IMG/VR virus record: IMGVR_UViG_3300042549_009479
Span: 1 to 26,678 of that record
Direction: 5' to 3' (one strand)
Source of the DNA: a virus
Length of the DNA: 26,678 nucleotides
The notes below the pieces were generated by a model, which was given only the letters and a program-made list of their open reading frames with translations, did not search any database and had not been told where the DNA came from. The translations under genes were made by a program, and so were the position numbers. Within the stretch, counting starts at the first letter, position 1; the number at the start of each line of letters is the position of its first letter. Of the stretch, positions 6,029 to 25,595 are shown in pieces.

Positions 6029-6580
6029 ATGGATTATTCACCAATTGTTTTAAAAAATAAAGGCGTTCCAGTTAAGTTCTACAAGACAAAAAAAGCAGAA
6101 AATGGGCTTGATGTTTGGGAGCGAGAATACGATGAGGTCGGCGAGCCAATCGTCGAAGATTCTTTCGTGCGCTTCAATAACAATGTGATTGCAGACATCG
6201 AGGTTCATTGGGGAAGCCTTGAAGAATGGCAAGAGCGGATTGAAAAACAGCCAGTTCATACGCTTAGGCAAACACTTGCTTTTGCAACAAGGCGACATAG
6301 TTCAGATATCGGAGAGGCAATGCTCGATGGTGAGGTGCTTGGTTATTCAAACGTAATCGGAACCGCGTGGGCAATTGCCAACGGCGTAAACCCGATAATG
6401 GCGAGTCGGATGTTGAAGCAGAGCGCCGAACTCGCCGAAGAGCAAAAAAGGCTGCTAAACGAGGCAATGGACGCACAGCAGGAAAAGACACAGGACTTCC
6501 TTGGAGACAGTGGTACACAACCTGGTCCCAAACGGGCCGTCCGTACGAAGAGTTCTGGGACCTCAGCCCAGCCCAAGTAG
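6029..6580 (+). CDS. Tail assembly chaperone, short form (gpG-like)
   Basis: A 183-residue protein from ATG 6029, chosen because the frame upstream runs back into the terminator and promoter. It is predicted helical and acidic in the middle, with a Pro/Thr/Ser/Lys-rich C-terminal end (TQPGPKRAVRTKSSGTSAQPK) that looks unstructured. Position directly before the tape measure gene, and the overlapping second frame, identify it as the first of the two tail chaperones that coat the tape measure during tail building, equivalent to lambda gpG. Sequence similarity between such chaperones is low, so the call rests mainly on gene order and the frameshift arrangement. Confidence 0.85.
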   Translation: MDYSPIVLKNKGVPVKFYKTKKAENGLDVWEREYDEVGEPIVEDSFVRFNNNVIADIEVHWGSLEEWQERIEKQPVHTLRQTLAFATRRHSSDIGEAMLDGEVLGYSNVIGTAWAIANGVNPIMASRMLKQSAELAEEQKRLLNEAMDAQQEKTQDFLGDSGTQPGPKRAVRTKSSGTSAQPK

Positions 6581-6675
6581 CCGCCGTCTTTGAGGGCATG
6601 GGTTACATGAAGCAAAAGGCTGGGACTAGCGAAATCATGAATTTTGCCAAGTCGCTTGGTCTTGCTTCTGGCTAG
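6029..6675 (+). CDS. Tail assembly chaperone, -1 frameshifted long form (gpGT-like)
   Basis: A second open frame, -1 relative to the short chaperone, overlaps its end and runs to a TAG at 6673-6675. Its 3' part encodes a folded-looking segment (LPWRQWYTTWSQ, FWDLSPAQVAAVFEGMGYM, IMNFAKSLGLASG) but has no convincing start of its own. The standard explanation is a programmed -1 shift giving a fused protein of about 215 residues. Two candidate slip points are present: an A6 run at 6444-6449 and G_GAA_AAG at 6481-6487. The second is phased like a canonical heptamer and would shift AAG to AAA in the A site, but needs a mismatch in the P site. The first allows a perfect Lys codon slip. Confidence 0.8.
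6481..6487 (+). other. Candidate -1 slippery site in the tail chaperone gene
   Basis: GGAAAAG is read as G_GAA_AAG in the chaperone frame. A -1 shift here joins residue 153 of the short form to DTGLPWRQW in the second frame. The alternative is slippage on the six-A run at 6444-6449 (codons CAA AAA AGG). I cannot decide between them from sequence alone. Confidence 0.5.
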
Positions 6676-6693
6676 TCGTTTGTAATTTGCATT

Positions 6694-6699
6694 TATACT
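6694..6699 (+). promoter_or_regulatory. Possible -10 box TATACT before the tape measure gene
   Basis: TATACT lies 44 bases before the tape measure start in a short AT-rich gap (6676-6742). No TTG-type -35 is found at normal spacing. The tape measure start itself has no clear ribosome site, only an A-rich AAAAAATAAATCT leader. Confidence 0.25.
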
Positions 6700-6742
6700 G
6701 TTTTCGTTTGCGTGCGGTGTTTTAATGTGAAAAAATAAATCT

Positions 6743-9700
6743 ATGTCAAACGCTCCTGGTGGTATGCCGCCACTAAACGTCCGCATTCAGATTTCAACAA
6801 CTGGTGCTGGAAGTGCCGCGTCTGCAATGCGCACTGTTTCTGGCGCATCTAGAGCAATGGGCTCTTCTATTGCAGGCAGTGCTGTACCAATCAGAATGAT
6901 GGGTGACGCAATGCGTCAAACCGCATCGCTGATTAAATATTCTGTTCTCGGCGGATTTTTGAATATGGGCAAGGCGGCGATGGATGCCTCTCGCCAAATG
7001 GAAGTTTCAATGTCGCGCATTCAAGGTTTGGTTGGAATTAGCGCAGCCGAAGTAGAAAAAATGAAGCAATCAATCCTGGAACTTGGAGGCTCTACAACCA
7101 AATCTCCACTGGAACTTGCAGAGGCCTTGTACTTCATTACATCTTCTGGATTTAAGGGCGCAGCAGCGATGGATATTCTCGCCGTATCAGCCCGTTCCGC
7201 AGCCGCTGGACTCGGAGAAACTCAGGTTGTTGCTGATGCTTTGACATCGGTTATGAGCGCTTACGGAGAAGGTACATATGATGCTGCAGCCGCGGCAGAT
7301 ATTCTTACAATTGCAGTACGAGAAGGTAAGGCAGAAGCAGACCAATTTGCTCCAGCACTTGGCAAGGTGCTTCCAGTAGCAGCCGCTTTTGGTGCGACAT
7401 TTGAAGACGTTTCTGCTGGTGTTGCTGCATTGAGCCGTACTGGTGCAAGCGCTGGTACGGCTGCTATTTACTTGCGTCAAGTTTTGTCACAGTTGCTAAA
7501 GCCATCAAAGCAGGCATCGGACACAATGAAGGCAGTTGGAACCAGCGCAGAATCAATTAGGGCAGAAATTAGCGAAAAAGGACTCCTCGTAGCCCTGGAA
7601 AATCTAAATACAAGACTTGGTGGAAGCGAATACGAAGTTGCATCTACTGGTCTTGCAAAGGTGTTCGGTAATGTGCGTGCACTTACGGCTGTCTACTCAT
7701 TGCTTGGTCCAAACCTTGAGGCGAACCGTGACATATTTGCGGAGATGTCCAACTCCGCAGGAGCAGCAAGTGATGCTTTCGAAGTAGCAGCACAAACAGC
7801 AGATGCAAAATTAAAAGCAGCGCTTGGAGAAGTACAGGCGATAATGATTAGCCTTGGTGACCAAATCATGCCAGTGGTGTCTGACTTGGTTTCGTTCGGC
7901 GGTGCAATTCTTAATGGAGTTAACTCAGTAGTTGCATTTACTGGGAAACTTGGAATTGTTGGAACCGTCGTTGGAAAGATTGTTAAATATTTTATTGGCG
8001 CCACAACCGTTTTGTTCCTCTTCGCAAAAAGTGGACTCTTTGTCTTTACAAGGGGAGCAGCATTGCTTCGTTTGTTTGCCAACATGCAGATAACAATTAA
8101 AGGCCTCACTACTGGAATCCGAACAATGAGCGGAACCACGAAAGGCCTTGGGGCGAGCATGGGCTTTCTTGGGAAGAGCACCATGAAGTCATCTTTTTCG
8201 GTTAGCCAAATGAATTACATTACGGCCCAAGCCGCCATATCAGAGCAGGCATACTATCGAGCAATAGCGCTTACCACTGGCAATCAGACACTAAGAACAA
8301 TTGCAACACAGAAAGCGGCTACAGCGTCGACAACTGCAGCGGTAGCGAATCAAGGACTTGCCTGGAGCGAAATGATTGCTGCAGTAAACGCCAAAATACT
8401 TGGACGCGCTTTAATGAATATGATTCCAATTGTTGGAACAGTAATCATGGTCGGAATGATTTTGTTCGATATTTTCAAAGGAATATTTGGAAAGAAAAAA
8501 TCAGAAGAAGACGCGGATGGAATTGACAAGCGCGCAAAATCTCTTGGTGAACTAAATAAGTTAATGGGCGCAACAATAAAACTTGCAACCAGCGGTTTTA
8601 CCATGGAGGTAAAGGGTGAAAAAAATGATGAAGGGGTCAATGTTTTTGAGGAATTTAAAAAGACAATTCCAGAAGATTTCAATAACGCAGTTGAAGAAAT
8701 AAACAAACGAACAGGAAATGACTCGGAAAAGATTGCTCTTGCTGCTGGATTCCTGGACCAGTTGGTATTGACTGACAAACAGAGAACTATGTTCACTACA
8801 TTTCTAGCAGACATGCTGAATATATCAGGAAATGATATTTTGAACTTTGACAACTCTGGGACAGCAGCAGCAATTTCACAAAATATTGACGGAATGTTTA
8901 TACAAGCATTCCAAGGTTCAGACAAAGATTATCTAGACGAGGTAAGAAGGGAATTTGAAGGACCCCTTAATACTGCTGGGCAGCAGTTGGATGCGCTATT
9001 CGAGGGAGTAGTAAACGCTGACAATAGGCAGGGTGCGACAAACGACATTAAGTCAATATTTGATACAGCAGGTGATTCTGTAGGAAATTTATTAGATTCC
9101 ACTGGAGATGTTGTTTCATTTTCAAAGAGTCTTACGGTACTAAAAACAAAAATAGGCAACTCTGGGATGGCCCTGTATAGGCAAAATGAAATCCTGAATA
9201 GGTACACAGAGGCAGTATTAAAGAGTGTTACTGGAACGGCAGACTTCACCAGCGACTCCCAGGACCTCCAGACGGTGTTTAAAGATACTGGAAACCAATC
9301 AAAATTCATTGACGTTTTAGAGAAGGGAGGAATGACACTCACTGACGCAACGGCTGCAGTAGAAGAACTTACCTCCGCATATGACACAAATACAGTGATG
9401 GATGCTGCTGAACAATACGAAATATTCACTGGAATCGTTGATAAATATACAGTCGCTCAAGATGGTGCAAGTCAGTCACAAAAAGATGCCATGTCTTCCG
9501 CTTATGACCTTGGCTCTGAATTTGCTGATGGTTTGTCTCCAGCAATCCGCGAATTAGCGGATGATTATGAAAATGCAAAAAAAGCGCTCGACAACTACGC
9601 AAAAGGTCAAGAAGCAATAAAAGGAACTGCTGTTGGTCTTGATGACGCTGCTATTGACTACAGAGACTCCCTAAGAGGATTGAACGATGCGCTTAAAGAA

Positions 9701-17454: not shown

Positions 17455-17793
17455 ATGACACCAAACATATTCACGACAAAAGTCGTTGGAGTGTCGTTTT
17501 GTAAAAACTATCCGCAGTCAATCTTTTCTATTAGCGCAAGCGTCGCTACTGGAAAAGTCAGCCTTGAACTAGAGCGTGATATTAACAACCCGCACGATTC
17601 CAATGCAATTATGGTTAAATCCCAAAAAATGTTCATTGGTTGGTTGCCAAAAGTTATCGCGGCAGTTTTAGCAAAAGAAATTGACAGTGGAATTACTTGG
17701 TCGGCGGAAGTTGATTCAATATTGGTATCGACAGAAAATGTTGACCAACCAGGACTAAAAATAACAGTATGGAGAAACAGTGAAAATCAATAG
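17455..17793 (+). CDS. Stand-alone HIRAN-domain protein
   Basis: A 112-residue protein that is essentially one HIRAN domain: VVGVSFCKNYPQSI, a second strand region VSLELERDINNPHDSNAIMV, and IGWLPKVIAAVLAKEIDSG. The N.HD.NAI.V phrase followed by (I/V)G.(L/I)PK is diagnostic. In eukaryotic HLTF the HIRAN domain binds DNA 3' ends at stalled forks and is fused to a SNF2 helicase. Phage and bacterial versions are often separate proteins near replication genes. Here it could recruit factors to DNA ends; notably the phage also encodes an unfused SNF2 protein at 2283. It starts 2 bases after the previous stop and its end overlaps the next GTG start. Confidence 0.8.
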   Translation: MTPNIFTTKVVGVSFCKNYPQSIFSISASVATGKVSLELERDINNPHDSNAIMVKSQKMFIGWLPKVIAAVLAKEIDSGITWSAEVDSILVSTENVDQPGLKITVWRNSENQ

Positions 17794-19861: not shown

Positions 19862-21178
19862 ATGTCAGAACAAATTAAAGTAGACACAGAAGTCGTAGAT
19901 ATCTCTATTTTGAAGGGGTATCACCAAAACCCGCGTCGTGGAGATGTTGACGCTATTGCGAAATCGCTTGAGGTAAACGGGCAATACAAGCCGATTGTGG
20001 TCAACCGAAAAGACAACTCAATACTCGCTGGCAATCATACATGGCGTGCCGCAAGAAGCCTTGGCTGGACCCAAATCGCAGTGTCTTGGGTTGATGTCGA
20101 CGAGCATGAAGCGCGCAAGATTGTTCTTGCCGACAATAGGACATCAGACTCCTCGGCATACGACGACTCAAAACTTCTAGAACTTCTTTCAAGCCTCCCA
20201 GACCTGGAAGGAACTGGCTTCACCAGTGTTGATATTGACCAACTTCAAGCCCTAATGAGTGGCATGGGAGAATTCACCGCACCAGAAGGTGAGCGGACAG
20301 GAAAAATAGGAGACGGAATTCGTATCTGTGTTGGCTCGTATCGAGTTCTTGTGGACGACGATGTTTACGCAGATTGGTCAAAAGACTTTGAGGGCGCATA
20401 CAAGGACAACGACTCAATTCTTCATGAGTTGCGTCGCCGTCTAAATCTTCTTGATGCAAAAGCAATTCCTCCACGCCCACGCAAAGCAGCGGCAAAGAAA
20501 AAAGCGGTTGCAAAGGCTGGGATGAAATCGGTTATTACAGAAACAACCAACGTGGATATCAATAGCGTTTTCCCATATCCAATGAATGCTCGTCAAGGCG
20601 ATATTGGGGTAATTGCTGAATCACTTAAGGAGAACGGACAGTTCAGGCCAATCGTTGTAAACAAATTGGATAACTCCATCCTTGTCGGCAACCACACCTG
20701 GAAGGCCGCAAAAATGTTGGGCTGGAAGGAAATAGCCGTGACCTTTGTAGACCTAGATGAAGCGGCTGCCGCAAAGATTGTACTGGTTGACAACAAAACT
20801 GCAGACCTCGCCACTTACGACCATGTTGAACTTGCAGAGATGCTCCGCTCAATGTCGTCTTTCGATGGAACTGGTTATAGCGGCGACGATGTTGATGATT
20901 TGATTAGCGATGTTGCTGGTTGGGGCATCAAGGAAGAAAAAGGAAAGTCGACAGACGAAGACAAGGCCAGAAATGTCACCGCCAACATCGGCAAGTGGGA
21001 GATTAAGTTTGAGCGCTCATACTTCGATGCATGGGAAGAAGAGATGTTCAAGGCTCACGGATTCTCGTATGAGGAAGTCTGTAGCGGAATGATGGAGGCG
21101 CTAAATATCCAGGGTGACTCATGGGTAAGCACACGCCAGCGCCGCTCAAAGCGCAAGAGCGCCCGTAGAACAGAGTAA
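19862..21178 (+). CDS. Tandem-duplicated ParB-like nuclease-domain protein
   Basis: A 438-residue protein composed of two homologous units. Each begins with a ParB/sulfiredoxin-fold domain: VDISILKGYHQNPRRGD and VDINSVFPYPMNARQGD; a helix AIAKSLEVNGQYKPIVV or VIAESLKENGQFRPIVV; and SILAGNHTW or SILVGNHTW (GNHTW at residues 57-61 and 276-280), then SLGWTQIAV or MLGWKEIAV. Each unit closes with a second conserved part ending RRRLNLL (first) or MMEALNI (second), preceded by GSYRVLV or GKWEIKF and a W. A Lys/Ala-rich linker lies between. ParB-like domains bind CTP or act as nucleases/ATPases; phage versions include DNA-modifying and partition factors. The GNHTW form replaces the GHRR box of classical ParB. 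It is coupled (TAATG) to the ParB-methyltransferase fusion, so a joint DNA-targeting job is plausible. Confidence 0.85.
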   Translation: MSEQIKVDTEVVDISILKGYHQNPRRGDVDAIAKSLEVNGQYKPIVVNRKDNSILAGNHTWRAARSLGWTQIAVSWVDVDEHEARKIVLADNRTSDSSAYDDSKLLELLSSLPDLEGTGFTSVDIDQLQALMSGMGEFTAPEGERTGKIGDGIRICVGSYRVLVDDDVYADWSKDFEGAYKDNDSILHELRRRLNLLDAKAIPPRPRKAAAKKKAVAKAGMKSVITETTNVDINSVFPYPMNARQGDIGVIAESLKENGQFRPIVVNKLDNSILVGNHTWKAAKMLGWKEIAVTFVDLDEAAAAKIVLVDNKTADLATYDHVELAEMLRSMSSFDGTGYSGDDVDDLISDVAGWGIKEEKGKSTDEDKARNVTANIGKWEIKFERSYFDAWEEEMFKAHGFSYEEVCSGMMEALNIQGDSWVSTRQRRSKRKSARRTE

Positions 21179-22725
21179 TGAAGCCCGTACTAACCCCAAT
21201 TGAGGACCTCCGTCCGTCTGCCTACAACCCAAGAAAGGCCGACGAAGAGCGCCTAAATCTTGTTGAGTTATCCCTGCGTAAATTTGGCTGGCTCCTGCCA
21301 ATCTACGCGGATGTAAACGGAGAGATTCTGAGTGGCCACCAAAGGCACCTAGTAGCCTCCAGGATGGGCGCAAAGGCCGTTCCAGTGGTTAGGACACCCC
21401 CGATGCCCGTAGAGCGCCGTATGGGAATAAACGTGCTATACAACCGCGCCACAAACGACCTTTATAAAAACCAATCTTCCTCGGACATGAAAGAGTCGCT
21501 TTTTTCGATGGAGGAAATGATTAATAAAATAAATCTACTGCCAGACATTGAAGTGGATACGGCAGAGTGGTATCCAGTAATGAAAATGAAGCCCCAGTCT
21601 GTCTTGCGACTTATAAGCAAAAATGAAAGATGGATGGAGCAGCACGCTATTGTCATGGCTGGACAAATAAAGTCACACGGGTTGCCTCCTATGCCTGTGA
21701 TTTGCACCCCAGATTTCAATGTTCTAAACGGCCGCGCGCGACTTACATTTGCAGCGCAGGAAGGAATTGATTTCATTGATGTCGTAACGGTTCCGTCAGA
21801 AGTTCAAGATGCAGTTACAGCAATGCTCAATCTTTTATCGATGGACTTTGATATCCAGGAACGCTACGCCGACCTTCTTCGTCACAACTCCTTCAGACGC
21901 AAGAATCAAAGAGTAGAAATACTGACACCAACATTCCTGGAAGACTTCTTGAGGCACTTCGTTCCTTCTGGCAATAGGAACGGTGCTTTTCATCTTGACG
22001 ACCCGAAGCATGTTGAGTTGTGGAAAGCATATTACGGGACAAAAGTAATTGATTTTGGGGCTGGCTTGTGCGACAAAACAGACATTCTCAATCGTCTTGG
22101 TGTTGACTGCACTGCCTTTGAGCCATTCTTCCTCGCAAAGGATAATGAAACAATCGATACTGAAGGCGCAAGACAACTCACGAGGAATTTTTTGAAGCGG
22201 GTTGCCGATGGGACAGAGTTTGACTCAATATTCATCGCTAGTGTTTTTAACAGCATTCCATTTCTTCAGGACAGAATCCACGTTATTAAACTCGTTGCGG
22301 CACTTTGCTCCCCACATACCAAACTACACACGGCTGCAATCTGCACGGAATCAGACAGATGGCACAACCACGCACGCGGAGATGTCAAAAAGGGCCACGA
22401 CACTTCCAGCGGTGGATTCCCACTCGACTATGAGCCAAGAATTATTGTTTCTGATATTGCTGCAAAGCCAAAGGTGCAGAAGTACCATACGCAAACAGAG
22501 TTCAAAGAATTGGTTCAAAATGGATTCAAAACAGTAGATACTTTTTTAACGGCAAAGAACGGGCTAGTGCAGGCTGTCGGCTCTAACCCAAAGAAAATAA
22601 GCGTTGAAGAATTGCGGGAGGCGATTGAGTTTGAGTTTGACCTCCCACATCCAGGAGGATTGCGTTTAGGGATGGCGGATGAAGCAAAAGAAGCATTTTC
22701 AAAAAGACTAGGAGTGGAATTATGA
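21178..22725 (+). CDS. ParB-like/SAM methyltransferase fusion protein
   Basis: A 515-residue protein. Residues 1-95 are a ParB-like domain (IEDLRPSAYNPRKADEERL, SLRKFGWLLPIY, SGHQRH at 52-57). A second, more diverged ParB-like region follows at about 160-250 (IKSHGLPPMPVI, VLNGRARLTFAAQEGIDF). From about 255 on is a Rossmann-fold methyltransferase-like domain: motif I VIDFGAG (Asp292 to Gly296), an acidic residue ending strand 2 (Glu315 in TAFEPFF), a strand-4 region around FDSIFIASVFNSIPFL, and C-terminal strands near VDTFLTAKNGLVQAVG. No DPPY/NPPY adenine or PC cytosine motif of DNA methyltransferases was found, so the substrate is open. The gene is translationally coupled to a CmoA-like carboxy-SAM synthase (ATGA), so it may use carboxy-SAM rather than SAM. 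Evidence for the ParB domains is strong; the methyltransferase call is moderate. Confidence 0.75.
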   Translation: MKPVLTPIEDLRPSAYNPRKADEERLNLVELSLRKFGWLLPIYADVNGEILSGHQRHLVASRMGAKAVPVVRTPPMPVERRMGINVLYNRATNDLYKNQSSSDMKESLFSMEEMINKINLLPDIEVDTAEWYPVMKMKPQSVLRLISKNERWMEQHAIVMAGQIKSHGLPPMPVICTPDFNVLNGRARLTFAAQEGIDFIDVVTVPSEVQDAVTAMLNLLSMDFDIQERYADLLRHNSFRRKNQRVEILTPTFLEDFLRHFVPSGNRNGAFHLDDPKHVELWKAYYGTKVIDFGAGLCDKTDILNRLGVDCTAFEPFFLAKDNETIDTEGARQLTRNFLKRVADGTEFDSIFIASVFNSIPFLQDRIHVIKLVAALCSPHTKLHTAAICTESDRWHNHARGDVKKGHDTSSGGFPLDYEPRIIVSDIAAKPKVQKYHTQTEFKELVQNGFKTVDTFLTAKNGLVQAVGSNPKKISVEELREAIEFEFDLPHPGGLRLGMADEAKEAFSKRLGVEL

Positions 22726-23435
22726 AAGATGAAATAATGCCTGGGCAAGAATGGGTATTCAACGATGATGTGGCAAGCGTCTTTGACGACATGCTCTCAC
22801 GCTCGATACCAGGTTACGAGAACATGAGAGACATGGTTTTCCGAATGATTTCACCAATCGTTACAAATGGCGGGTATGTTCTCGACCTTGGCTGCTCGCA
22901 CGGCGAAATGATTTCTTTGATGATGAAGGAATTAGGGTCATCGATGTATGTCAACTATGTCGGAGTCGACTCATCTACGGCAATGGTTAGCAGGGCAAGA
23001 AAAAGGTTCTCGGCAGATGAGCGTGTAACAATTATCCATGCTGACATTGCAACAGCAGAAATGCAGCGTCTAAGGTATGACACAGTTCTTTCGGTGCTCA
23101 CTCTTCAGTTCGTTCCCGTGGAACATCGTCAAGAAATATTAAAACAAATCTATGATTGTCTGACCCCGAACGGTTGCTTCATACTTGTGGAAAAAGTTCT
23201 TGGGGAGACTGCCGCTGGGCAAGAGCAACTTGTCGGCGTTTATCATAAAATGAAAAAAGATAACGGCTACACGGAAGAGCAGGTAGATGCAAAGCGCTCA
23301 TCTCTACAGAATGTTCTTGTTCCACTGCGTGCCTCAGAGAACATCCGCATGCTAAAGGCTGCAGGATTCTCCGTGGTTCAGCCATTCTGGCAAAATCTTA
23401 ACTTTGTAGGGATTTATGCCTCCAAAGAAAAGTAA
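22722..23435 (+). CDS. cmoA-like: CmoA-like carboxy-S-adenosylmethionine synthase
   Basis: A 237-residue class I methyltransferase-fold protein that follows bacterial CmoA from end to end: FNDDVASVFDDMLSRSIPGYE near the start, motif I VLDLGCSHGE, VDSSTAMVSRAR, LTLQFVPVEHRQEILKQIYD, then YHKMKKDNGYTEEQVDAKRSSLQNV and AAGFSVVQPFWQNLNFVGIYA. CmoA converts SAM plus prephenate to carboxy-SAM and phenylpyruvate. In E. coli, Arg199 binds the extra carboxylate; the equivalent here is Arg192 in the KRSSLQNV phrase, so Cx-SAM binding looks preserved. The usual partner CmoB is not in the window. The gene overlaps the ParB-methyltransferase gene by 4 bases and the RusA-like gene by 20. A SAM-dependent methyltransferase of other function cannot be excluded, but the whole-length match makes CmoA chemistry the best guess. 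Confidence 0.8.
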   Translation: MKDEIMPGQEWVFNDDVASVFDDMLSRSIPGYENMRDMVFRMISPIVTNGGYVLDLGCSHGEMISLMMKELGSSMYVNYVGVDSSTAMVSRARKRFSADERVTIIHADIATAEMQRLRYDTVLSVLTLQFVPVEHRQEILKQIYDCLTPNGCFILVEKVLGETAAGQEQLVGVYHKMKKDNGYTEEQVDAKRSSLQNVLVPLRASENIRMLKAAGFSVVQPFWQNLNFVGIYASKEK

Positions 23436-23826
23436 GGAACCGCCGAAGTTACAGACATTCGTCGTTGAGATTTACGGCGAGACAATGTGGACCCTGAATA
23501 AGGAGAGAAGTCTGCATCATTATCAGCGCGCAAAACTGGTGAAAGAATGGCGAGAAGCATCGGCGGCTGTGTCAACAGCAAAAAAGATACCAAAACGCCT
23601 TCGGGCTGTGGAAATAAGATTCATTCCACATCGAAGGAACGGTAAAGGAAAGGCAGACACTGGCGGACATTTCCCTGTAGCAAAGGCCTGTATAGACGGT
23701 CTTGTTGACGCTGGTATACTTTGGGAGGATGGTCCAGAGATTGTTAGGCGGCTCATATTTGAAGCGCCGATTGTTTCTGGAGAGTCAAAAGTTGTACTGC
23801 ATATCACAGAACTGGAAGAGCGATGA
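23416..23826 (+). CDS. RusA-like Holliday junction resolvase
   Basis: A 136-residue protein from ATG 23416, overlapping the CmoA-like gene by 20 bases. RusA enzymes are small dimeric nucleases that cut four-way junctions. The pattern KGKADTGGHFPVAKACIDGLVDAGILWEDGPEIVRRLIF fits the RusA core, in which acidic residues of the form D.D(N)..K...D.L...G....DD bind magnesium; here the central acidic pair is DTG and the later one EDG, as seen in many actinophage relatives. The N-terminal part (FVVEIYGE, TLNKERSLHHYQRAKLVKEWR) is also typical. The weaker acidic cluster lowers certainty that it is catalytic. It ends in an ATGA overlap with the next gene. Confidence 0.7.
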   Translation: MPPKKSKEPPKLQTFVVEIYGETMWTLNKERSLHHYQRAKLVKEWREASAAVSTAKKIPKRLRAVEIRFIPHRRNGKGKADTGGHFPVAKACIDGLVDAGILWEDGPEIVRRLIFEAPIVSGESKVVLHITELEER

Positions 23827-25172: not shown

Positions 25173-25595
25173 ATGCCACTACATAATCACCTTCTCCTGA
25201 ATGGCTACATGACCAATCCACCAATGGATAAAAGCGCTGCTCTTATCTGGATTCAAAAATTAGTCGAAGAAATTGGCATGAAGGTTGCCGCTGGACCGAT
25301 TGCTGCATATGTAGAAAAAGAAGGCAACCGTGGAATGACTGTTGGGTGCTTAATCGAAACCTCGCATATCGCCATGCATGTGTGGGATGAGACAAGCCCA
25401 TCATTCGTTCAATTTGACCTTTACACCTGTTCCACTCTTCCGACCGAACTTGTTATCCGTAATCTTGTTGAAAATTGGGGACTTCACAACTACGCACACA
25501 TGGTCCTTGAGCGCTCAGACGGATTTAATGTCGTCGAATCTGGAGGAACGGCAGTCTTGGAAAGCGAATTCCCCCAAGATACATTGCCGTTTTAG
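25173..25595 (+). CDS. SpeD/SpeH-type pyruvoyl-dependent decarboxylase (S-adenosylmethionine decarboxylase-like)
   Basis: A 140-residue protein with the AdoMetDC core IETSHIAMHVWDE and FVQFDLYTC. Ser64 is the expected residue that becomes the pyruvoyl group on self-cleavage, His69 the processing histidine and Cys86 the proton donor; Ser to His spacing (5) equals that in Thermotoga AdoMetDC. One difference is Thr63 just before the serine where the family normally has Glu, which may change processing. AdoMetDC makes decarboxylated SAM for spermidine synthesis, but some phage and bacterial relatives have become arginine or ornithine decarboxylases. With the CmoA-like and methyltransferase genes this is a second SAM-related enzyme in the phage. 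No polyamine synthase is in the window. Confidence 0.85.
   Translation: MPLHNHLLLNGYMTNPPMDKSAALIWIQKLVEEIGMKVAAGPIAAYVEKEGNRGMTVGCLIETSHIAMHVWDETSPSFVQFDLYTCSTLPTELVIRNLVENWGLHNYAHMVLERSDGFNVVESGGTAVLESEFPQDTLPF

Follow-up and report, generated by a model that had tools for sequence, protein, structure and literature searches.

In bacteria, CmoA is an enzyme of a tRNA pathway (PMC12783734). In phages, CmoA and a second protein, CmoX, were reported in December 2025 to carry out C5-carboxymethylation of DNA, with 5-carboxymethylcytosine in Synechococcus phage S-B43 (PMC12783734). CmoX is a homologue of C5-cytosine methyltransferases, and that report noted ParB-domain neighbors whose role was unknown. 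A preliminary search described in the same report yielded no candidate for a CmoA-associated phage carboxymethyltransferase of the N6-adenine or N4-cytosine type. A different study, also of December 2025, described phage and prophage fusions of a ParB-CTPase fold to a Methyltransf_23 domain, which were presented without a function, ParB/methyltransferase fusions being frequent in phages; one bacterial fusion of ParB to a SAM-dependent methyltransferase bound ATP (PMC12704722).

We analyzed a stretch of viral DNA of 26,678 nucleotides (IMG/VR record IMGVR_UViG_3300042549_009479; "the window"), in which three genes on the plus strand, A, B, and C, link these two sets of results, which were not linked to each other in the two reports as far as their accounts go. 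On balance, we think that A, B, and C probably form a phage carboxymethylation module, in which B would use carboxy-SAM to modify a nucleobase and the ParB folds would load or gate it (Table 1). The outline architecture of B is that of the published fusions (PMC12704722), but B adjoins a CmoA-like gene, and the main text of that study never mentions CmoA. As in the CmoA-CmoX(-CmoY) system of S-B43, a phage CmoA lies beside a gene with a methyltransferase fold, often with ParB and without CmoB. The gene order in phage PaBG is ParB, a CmoX-like cytosine methylase, CmoA, one further gene, and an asparagine synthetase. However, CmoX is a C5-methyltransferase with an SPPC motif and R350, while the candidate transferase of the window, B, joins a METTL6-like domain to a ParB fold. 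The bacterial CmoA-CmoB wobble pathway shares a CmoA homologue with the window, including the equivalent of Arg199, but differs in that the CmoB family was absent from the 15 records searched. The original prediction held that no such system had been described, and this is out of date now that phage CmoA-dependent DNA carboxymethylation (PMC12783734) and ParB/Methyltransf_23 fusions (PMC12704722) are both in print. Among the literature matches listed, we found no open-access title that joins CmoA to a ParB fusion.

Table 1. Features of the window that are discussed in the text.
Feature	Coordinates	Strand	Basis
Gene A (438 aa): protein with two copies of ParB_N	19862..21178	+	ORF; PF02195; phrog_8071/723
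Gene B: ParB-fold domain and class I methyltransferase fusion, 515 aa	21178..22725	+	ORF; phrog_5475; AF2 model
B residues 1-119: predicted ParB CTPase-type fold	21178..21534	+	VIA Z 11.8; conserved boxes
B residues 224-475: predicted class I (Rossmann) methyltransferase domain with N-terminal cap	21847..22602	+	VIA Z 13.7/13.6
B residues 235-241 (RHNSFRR in the window): cap region	21880..21900	+	Conserved columns
B K432-K435 (KPKVQKYHT motif)	22471..22482	+	Conserved; the model places it between strands of the core
Gene C (237 aa): CmoA-like protein, probably a carboxy-SAM synthase	22722..23435	+	TIGR00740; 1im8/4gek; linkage
C codon R192 (R199 of E. coli CmoA)	23295..23297	+	Alignment; role from PMC3663124
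RusA-like resolvase, next gene after C	23416..23826	+	phrog_34, 2.6e-9

ORF calling on the window bears out the predicted coupling of the three genes by overlaps of 1 to 4 bases: A and B share one base (21178), and B and C share four (ATGA, 22722-22725). C overlaps the gene for a RusA-like resolvase by 20 bases. This gene is probably in a common operon with A-B-C, but we do not think that it is part of the module. The RusA-like gene, and not a terminase, follows C in the window's own lineage (16 loci), which counts against the carboxymethylation reading; many other lineages carry the module directly before the terminase genes.

The original prediction expected the genes to be linked in related phages. 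C lies downstream of B in the same orientation at 88 of 94 viral or phage loci, and at all 82 of those with at least 2 kb of sequence downstream; the six loci that lack C have 715 or fewer bases downstream. On contigs from bacterial genomes, C accompanies B in 56 of 68 cases, or 50 of the 52 with such room. The other two (L128 and L129) have A and B and room downstream, but C is absent. We also clustered the B proteins at 90% identity, and in 43 of the 45 clusters the representative has C. The linkage of B and C is thus nearly obligate. A ParB gene lies upstream of B at 81 of the 94 viral or phage loci and on 55 of the 68 bacterial contigs. CmoA neighbors were identified with a profile (A2) whose build of 16 rows included the window and 12 further rows linked to B. 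Because A2 derives in part from the neighbors being counted, we also searched with the window's C alone (phmmer, 1e-5), which found a CmoA neighbor in 85 of 94 and 53 of 68 cases. The module is present in named phages: gp51-52-53 of SM1, genes 1-2-3 of HJ05, and genes 1, 2, and 5 of Evaa. Since the gene order recurs in distant phages and in prophages, it is beyond chance. B and C also covary (r = 0.72 across 57 loci; none of 200 shuffles reached this value), but B and the terminase covary more strongly (r = 0.94, 12 loci), so we take the covariation of B with C as co-inheritance and not as a special signal. Nine columns of B track the Arg or Glu type of the CmoA (described below) at 75%; they seem to be bound to sub-clades, and we did not count them.

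C was predicted to be CmoA-like, and its top NCBIfam family is indeed CmoA (TIGR00740, 2.6e-50). Because its score of 171.3 bits does not reach the equivalog cut-off of 193.3, we call it CmoA-like. TIGR00740 was also the top family for all nine C homologues that we scanned, each of them below the cut-off. The best sequence match in the PDB is YecO, a CmoA (9.9e-35; 1im8/4gek). In E. coli CmoA, R199 forms a salt bridge to the carboxylate of carboxy-SAM (PMC3663124). C retains the equivalents of R199, Y39, D62, G64, S66, D89, D117, and E164 (R192, Y32, D55, G57, S59, D83, D108, and E157 in the window) and differs at N132, N90, and A70 (V125, S84, and M63). These conserved ligand residues suggest that C makes carboxy-SAM. 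It counts against the module that 39 of the 89 C proteins aligned have a residue other than arginine at the position of R199 (Glu in 29, Ala in 7, and Asn, Thr, and Val in one each), with one gap counted separately; the C proteins of HJ05, SM1, and Evaa are among the 39. All 29 of the Glu-type proteins have an arginine eight residues further on, and six of the seven Ala-type proteins have one four residues further on. The subfamilies with Glu in place of Arg199 may use a differently substituted SAM.

Canonical ParB proteins have an arginine in the GxxR of Box II. A matches ParB_N (PF02195, 1.2e-16) in two stretches, as expected of a doubled ParB-like protein, and also matches the profiles phrog_8071/723. 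Reading the sequence by eye, we see GNHTW in both repeats at the place of the Box II arginine.

B is the fusion that was predicted, with a ParB fold followed by a class I methyltransferase fold in its AF2 model (pLDDT 86.4, pTM 0.82). Across its length (residues 4-512) B matches phrog_5475, a family of "unknown function" (1.7e-97). At the N-terminus, the sequence match to ParB_N is 7.1e-4 (20 bits, under the Pfam cut-off of 26.3), and the modeled domain superposes on 7bnr_A (VIA Z 11.8, 1.7 A over 93 residues) and also on 6sdk and 7bm8. In an alignment of 90 proteins, NPR (17-19), GHQR (53-56), and N85...NRxTND (89-94) each reach a conservation of 95% or more. The model and these boxes indicate a ParB-CTPase fold with NTP-binding boxes. 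One viral scan gave 262 stretches related to B, some of them possibly partial matches, and we studied 80 of the 262.

For the methyltransferase domain, the closest solved fold among the matches listed is METTL6 (Z 13.7 for the full model and 13.6 for the domain alone). As in B, a cap precedes the core in METTL6 and other m3C tRNA methyltransferases (Z 13.0-13.7), but their identity to B is 9-12%, and the lead of METTL6 is small, with the next entries 0.7 to 1.7 Z lower. A PDB search with E of up to 1 gave no sequence-profile match to METTL6, so the likeness is one of fold alone. The other top folds include the small-molecule methyltransferases ToxA, CcbJ, and GNMT, and also Trm9. None of the 50 structural matches listed is named as a DNA methyltransferase, which excludes nothing. 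Unlinked genes or a fusion with no SAM pocket would have spoken against the original prediction; the genes are linked, and the ligand-free model of the fusion shows a class I fold, so neither of these two checks refuted it. In the cap, R235, R240, and R241 are arginine in all 90 aligned proteins, and the aligned range roughly matches residues 235-241 to the METTL6 cap that carries F57/R60 (PMC11479938). K432 and K435 are lysine in all 90. Based on this conservation, we propose that residues 235-241 contact the base or the cofactor and that K432/K435 contact the carboxylate. We saw no classical DNA-methyltransferase motif in B. In an alignment read by eye, motif IV of the N6-adenine and N4-cytosine enzymes, (D/N/S)PP(Y/F/W), is absent, with no PP pair, and the segment that is conserved behind core strand 4 reads SV-x-NS-x-PF. 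Methyltransf_23 (PF13489) matches the window's B at an E of 0.042 at best and one of 13 relatives at 0.0011. We dropped a close kinship to dnd-associated methyltransferases, suggested by a resemblance, because B matches no NCBIfam methyltransferase family at E of up to 1. A Foldseek match among viral models to a "putative modification methylase" (2.2e-6) was also set aside; it involved long, poorly superposed stretches, and the matches were otherwise mainly to ParB.

Could B be one of the known transferases? B has no match to PF00145 at E of up to 1, and we rejected the idea that it is CmoX in disguise. Nor did we find PF00145 in 35 of 37 B-bearing records, though many of these are fragments and the absence of CmoX from any one such contig is weak evidence. 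The two exceptions have GYPCQ instead of SPPC, and all C5-methyltransferases that we found in or near B loci (L073, L075, L076, and L085) have this ordinary motif. The records of the six closest relatives (L009-L014) have no PF00145 match. Among phage records, CmoX-like proteins, searched for with the PaBG protein at 1e-30, occur in 63 and full-length B in 14, and the organism tallies are disjoint. A CmoB-like B was rejected as well: there was no match to PF08003, and this family is absent from all 15 records searched, which include the window and of which 13 bear B.

The analysis shows the gene order and its near-obligate conservation, the predicted folds, the conserved cofactor residues of C, and the scarcity of C5-methyltransferases beside B. 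We infer that C makes carboxy-SAM and that B uses it, as well as the target, base, and atom, the role of ParB, and any protection from restriction. If B uses the product of CmoA, it stands in the place of CmoX in the published phage system, and our best reading of B is a nucleic-acid carboxymethyltransferase that depends on carboxy-SAM and forms a second class of such enzymes. C would convert SAM and prephenate to carboxy-SAM, and the METTL6-like domain of B would then move the carboxymethyl group onto a nucleobase; most likely, this base lies in phage DNA that is yet to be packaged. The ParB fold of B and the separate ParB protein A would serve to load the enzyme on DNA or to gate it there, a nucleotide probably being bound, and the mark might hide phage DNA from restriction or other bacterial defenses. 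Overall, the original reading, in which CmoA supplies carboxy-SAM, the ParB folds bind or activate the target, and the modified bases protect the phage, is partly supported. It is also possible, and we hold this tentatively, that B is the first of an independently recruited second class acting on DNA, with an RNA-type (METTL6-like) N-alkylating domain, loading by an NTP-binding ParB fold, and transfer of the carboxymethyl group to a nitrogen of the base. If so, B would supply a candidate of the kind that the search in PMC12783734 did not yield.

DNA seems the likeliest target of B, but it counts against a DNA module that B shows no classical DNA-methyltransferase motif and that the closest solved folds in the model comparison act on tRNA or small molecules. 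B might instead carboxymethylate tRNA or another RNA as a phage substitute for CmoB, with ParB binding RNA or only regulating. The proximity to METTL6 (which makes m3C32 in tRNA), the presence of Trm9 in the list, and the bacterial role of CmoA in a tRNA pathway (PMC12783734) all fit this. Yet a common fold does not fix the substrate, the ParB domains and the terminase neighbors in other lineages favor DNA, and B takes the place of the DNA-acting CmoX in the PaBG order. The window has no tRNA genes, although a host tRNA could still be the target. We consider an RNA target rather unlikely. The same fold list, with ToxA, CcbJ, and GNMT near the top, would also suit a module whose target is not nucleic acid but a protein or small molecule, such as a host defense signal. 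B carries a fused ParB fold, however, and has another ParB protein as its neighbor, and we regard this reading as highly improbable.

A different concern is whether B uses carboxy-SAM at all. ParB/methyltransferase fusions are frequent in phages with no tie to CmoA mentioned in the main text of PMC12704722, and the two bacterial loci without C show that A and B can occur without it. B could therefore be an ordinary SAM-dependent DNA methyltransferase with ParB, and the carboxy-SAM from C could be used otherwise (to draw down SAM or by another enzyme). But B and C otherwise co-occur, and we found no other candidate carboxymethyltransferase (PF00145 with SPPC, or PF08003) in the records searched, so we view this as improbable.

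Read as a carboxymethylation module, the three genes would give phrog_5475 and its relatives a predicted function, add a second class of enzymes to DNA carboxymethylation, and involve the ParB fold in the modification of bases. These predictions are directly testable in cultured phages that have the module: Gordonia phage Evaa (host G. terrae 3612), Pseudomonas phage SM1, and Aeromonas phage HJ05. DAHP synthase belongs to the pathway to prephenate, and HJ05 encodes one near the module (aroFGH, 274.8 bits versus a cut-off of 173.2), the only one in 19 records. HJ05 also encodes an asparagine-synthetase-like protein nearby, so at least one phage with B shares the ligase-like gene of the S-B43-type systems; such proteins were present in two of 15 records, one of which is PaBG.

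All three ORFs of the original prediction (A, B and C) are found in the window, whose 26,678 bases make up a complete IMG/VR virus record, and they overlap as the prediction described. Gene A had been read as a doubled ParB protein, and two ParB_N copies are indeed detected in it. For gene C, CmoA is the best family, with a score that falls under the equivalog cut-off. Gene B matches phrog_5475, a family without known function, across its entire length.

In IMG/VR, a profile scan identified relatives of B encoded on 262 stretches, and the best 80 of these 262 were taken for study. The viral and phage set comprises 94 loci, with duplicates removed. The expected linkage is present: a CmoA-like ORF lies downstream of B on the same strand in 88 of the 94 loci, and in all 82 of those with at least 2 kb 3' of B. 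(In the six loci that lack C, at most 715 bases remain after B.) These 94 loci form 45 clusters at 90% identity of B, and C is present in 43 of the 45 representatives. Among contigs from bacterial genomes (titled as Verrucomicrobia, Alphaproteobacteria, Clostridia, Bacteroidales, Chloroflexi, Vibrio, Photobacterium, and others), C occurs with B in 56 of 68, or 50 of 52 where there is sufficient room; two of these 56 (L134 and L163) have C on the 5' side of B. In the two bacterial loci L128 and L129, which have enough room, A, B and a small HAD-like ORF are present and no CmoA-like gene was found; by eye, L128 also has a PIN-toxin-like ORF further along. The viral and bacterial sets overlap in part, as L132 and L105 look like one contig of 17,572 bases. 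A ParB gene is found 5' of B in 81 of the 94 viral or phage loci and in 55 of the 68 bacterial loci. Pseudomonas phage SM1 (gp51-53) and Aeromonas phage HJ05 (genes 1-3) both have the order ParB, B, CmoA. Gordonia phage Evaa has ParB as gene 1, B as gene 2 and the CmoA-like gene as gene 5, with two genes on the opposite strand in between. The A-B-C module is real and conserved.

The best-supported reading, and one we hold to be very probable, is that C feeds B; DNA is likely to be the target. We compared C to E. coli CmoA, for which ligands of carboxy-SAM have been defined (PMC3663124). R199 of E. coli CmoA corresponds to R192 in the window's C, and Y32, D55, G57, S59, D83, D108 and E157 are also kept; the altered positions are N132 (V125), N90 (S84) and A70 (M63). 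Of 89 aligned C proteins, the window's among them, 49 have R at the R199 column, 29 have E and seven have A; N, T and V occur once each, and one protein has a gap (Evaa has A, HJ05 has N, and SM1 has T). We treat replacement of R199 as a reservation about the subfamilies concerned; it does not touch the window's C. In all 29 E-type proteins, the E164 column is D and there is an Arg eight residues further (position 200 of the window's C); six of the seven A-type proteins have an Arg four residues further. The E-type proteins may make an alternative SAM derivative.

For B, the proposed fusion of ParB and methyltransferase folds is supported by an AlphaFold2 model (13 sequences; mean pLDDT 86.4, pTM 0.82). 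Residues 1-119 resemble ParB: 7bnr_A superposes with Z 11.8 (1.7 A over 93 residues), and 6sdk and 7bm8 match too. Residues 224-475 resemble class I methyltransferases, and METTL6 occupies the top four rows (Z 13.7-13.0; next row 12.0). METTL6 was again at the top when the methyltransferase domain was modeled alone (29 sequences; pLDDT 87.4, pTM 0.88; Z 13.6-13.2; next 12.5). Foldseek's own ranking places other, mostly small-molecule, methyltransferases above METTL6. Because METTL6 and the next matches are nearly tied, we claim only a resemblance in predicted fold. METTL6 is reported to grip the base with F57 and R60, from a cap that precedes the core, and with R213; R60 also contacts the cofactor (PMC11479938). 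In B, R235, R240 and R241 fall in the stretch that matches this cap by aligned range, while R366, K432 and K435 are in the methyltransferase core. All 90 aligned B proteins keep these six residues, which we propose as candidate contacts that would bind the carboxylate or the base. The ParB domain of B retains the NPR, GHQR and NR-TND motifs. Other ParB-fold proteins are described as needing the Box II Arg to bind nucleotide (PMC12704722); both repeats of gene A have GNHTW in place of this residue, so A may not bind nucleotide.

The original prediction knew of no described system, which no longer holds, as CmoA-dependent carboxymethylation of phage DNA has been published. In Synechococcus phage S-B43, CmoA is reported to produce carboxy-SAM; the C5-MTase homologue CmoX employs this cofactor to modify cytosine C5 of DNA, and CmoY attaches glycine (Yang et al., PMC12783734). 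A December 2025 survey of ParB folds describes phage fusions to Methyltransf_23, proposing a role in phage biology and assigning no function; the word CmoA does not appear in its main text (PMC12704722). Among the titles listed by our searches of the open-access literature, none joins the two. The A-B-C module varies on a kind of system already in print and is not entirely without precedent.

Of 50,697 phage records, 63 have a match (at 1e-30) to the CmoX-like protein of Pseudomonas phage PaBG, and 14 encode B across at least 80% of its length. No organism is shared between the tallies of the two sets, and both Pseudomonas records in the CmoX-like set are PaBG. (We named the PaBG protein from its PF00145 match, EGSPPC motif and gene place; the gene order is ParB, CmoX-like, CmoA, one other gene, Asn synthetase.) PF00145 was not found in 35 of 37 distinct B-bearing records (17 + 21, one shared), many of which are fragments; the other two have the ordinary GYPCQPF motif. 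Searching the 94 loci by phmmer with the PaBG protein also gave C5-methyltransferase-type ORFs, with GYPCQ, in three loci (L075, L076 and L085). CmoB (PF08003) was found in none of 15 records searched.

Coordinates of features in the window and in other loci (L numbers are loci that carry relatives of B)
Feature	Coordinates	Remark
GYPCQ C5-methyltransferases	L073:10324-11127, L075:3727-4722, L076:3727-4722, L085:62-1006	near B
DAHP synthase of HJ05	L044:258-1421 (HJ05 6257-7420)	Aeromonas phage, near the putative carboxymethylation module
Small HAD-like ORF	L060:3344-3829	one of 57 loci
E-type CmoA-like proteins	L023:8090-8734, L073:9106-9762	examples
TauD-type 2OG-Fe dioxygenase	L016:8207-8983	4.2e-15
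SAM decarboxylase-like gene	window 25173-25595	PF02675, 6.4e-11
HIRAN-domain protein	window 17455-17793	PF08797, 2e-8

ORF clusters 3' of the module have tested representatives that are GpA-type large terminase (39 loci) and small terminase (28 loci). This placement on the packaging side fits a DNA target; the window's own lineage differs, with a RusA-like gene after C instead (16 loci). A cluster of small ORFs from 57 loci lies mostly directly 3' of B (53 of 57 on the + strand), and we take it to be HAD-like from a DLN-T motif. Both members tested match phrog_32036; a weak match to polynucleotide kinase (0.0026) was also seen for one ORF of the cluster. Since B and C overlap in the window, there is no room for this ORF there. 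In L016, the TauD-type gene lies between B and C, and L017 has the same gene order by sequence.

HJ05 encodes a DAHP synthase as gene 6, three genes past C (aroFGH, 274.8 bits; cut-off 173.2), the only one in 19 records. This enzyme is the entry to the shikimate pathway, which leads to prephenate (PMC4281200). Prephenate is the co-substrate of CmoA. Gene 12 of HJ05 is Asn-synthetase-like (PF00733, 9.7e-6; weakly QueC-like in PHROGs), which makes CmoY-type ligation possible in this phage; two of 15 records, HJ05 and PaBG, gave a PF00733 match. In the window, a WhiB-type gene (PF02467, 4.6e-13) suggests an actinobacterial host. The window also encodes a HIRAN-domain protein and, about 1.7 kb 3' of C, a second SAM-related gene, which resembles S-adenosylmethionine decarboxylase; by eye, an ORF cluster from 11 loci resembles it.
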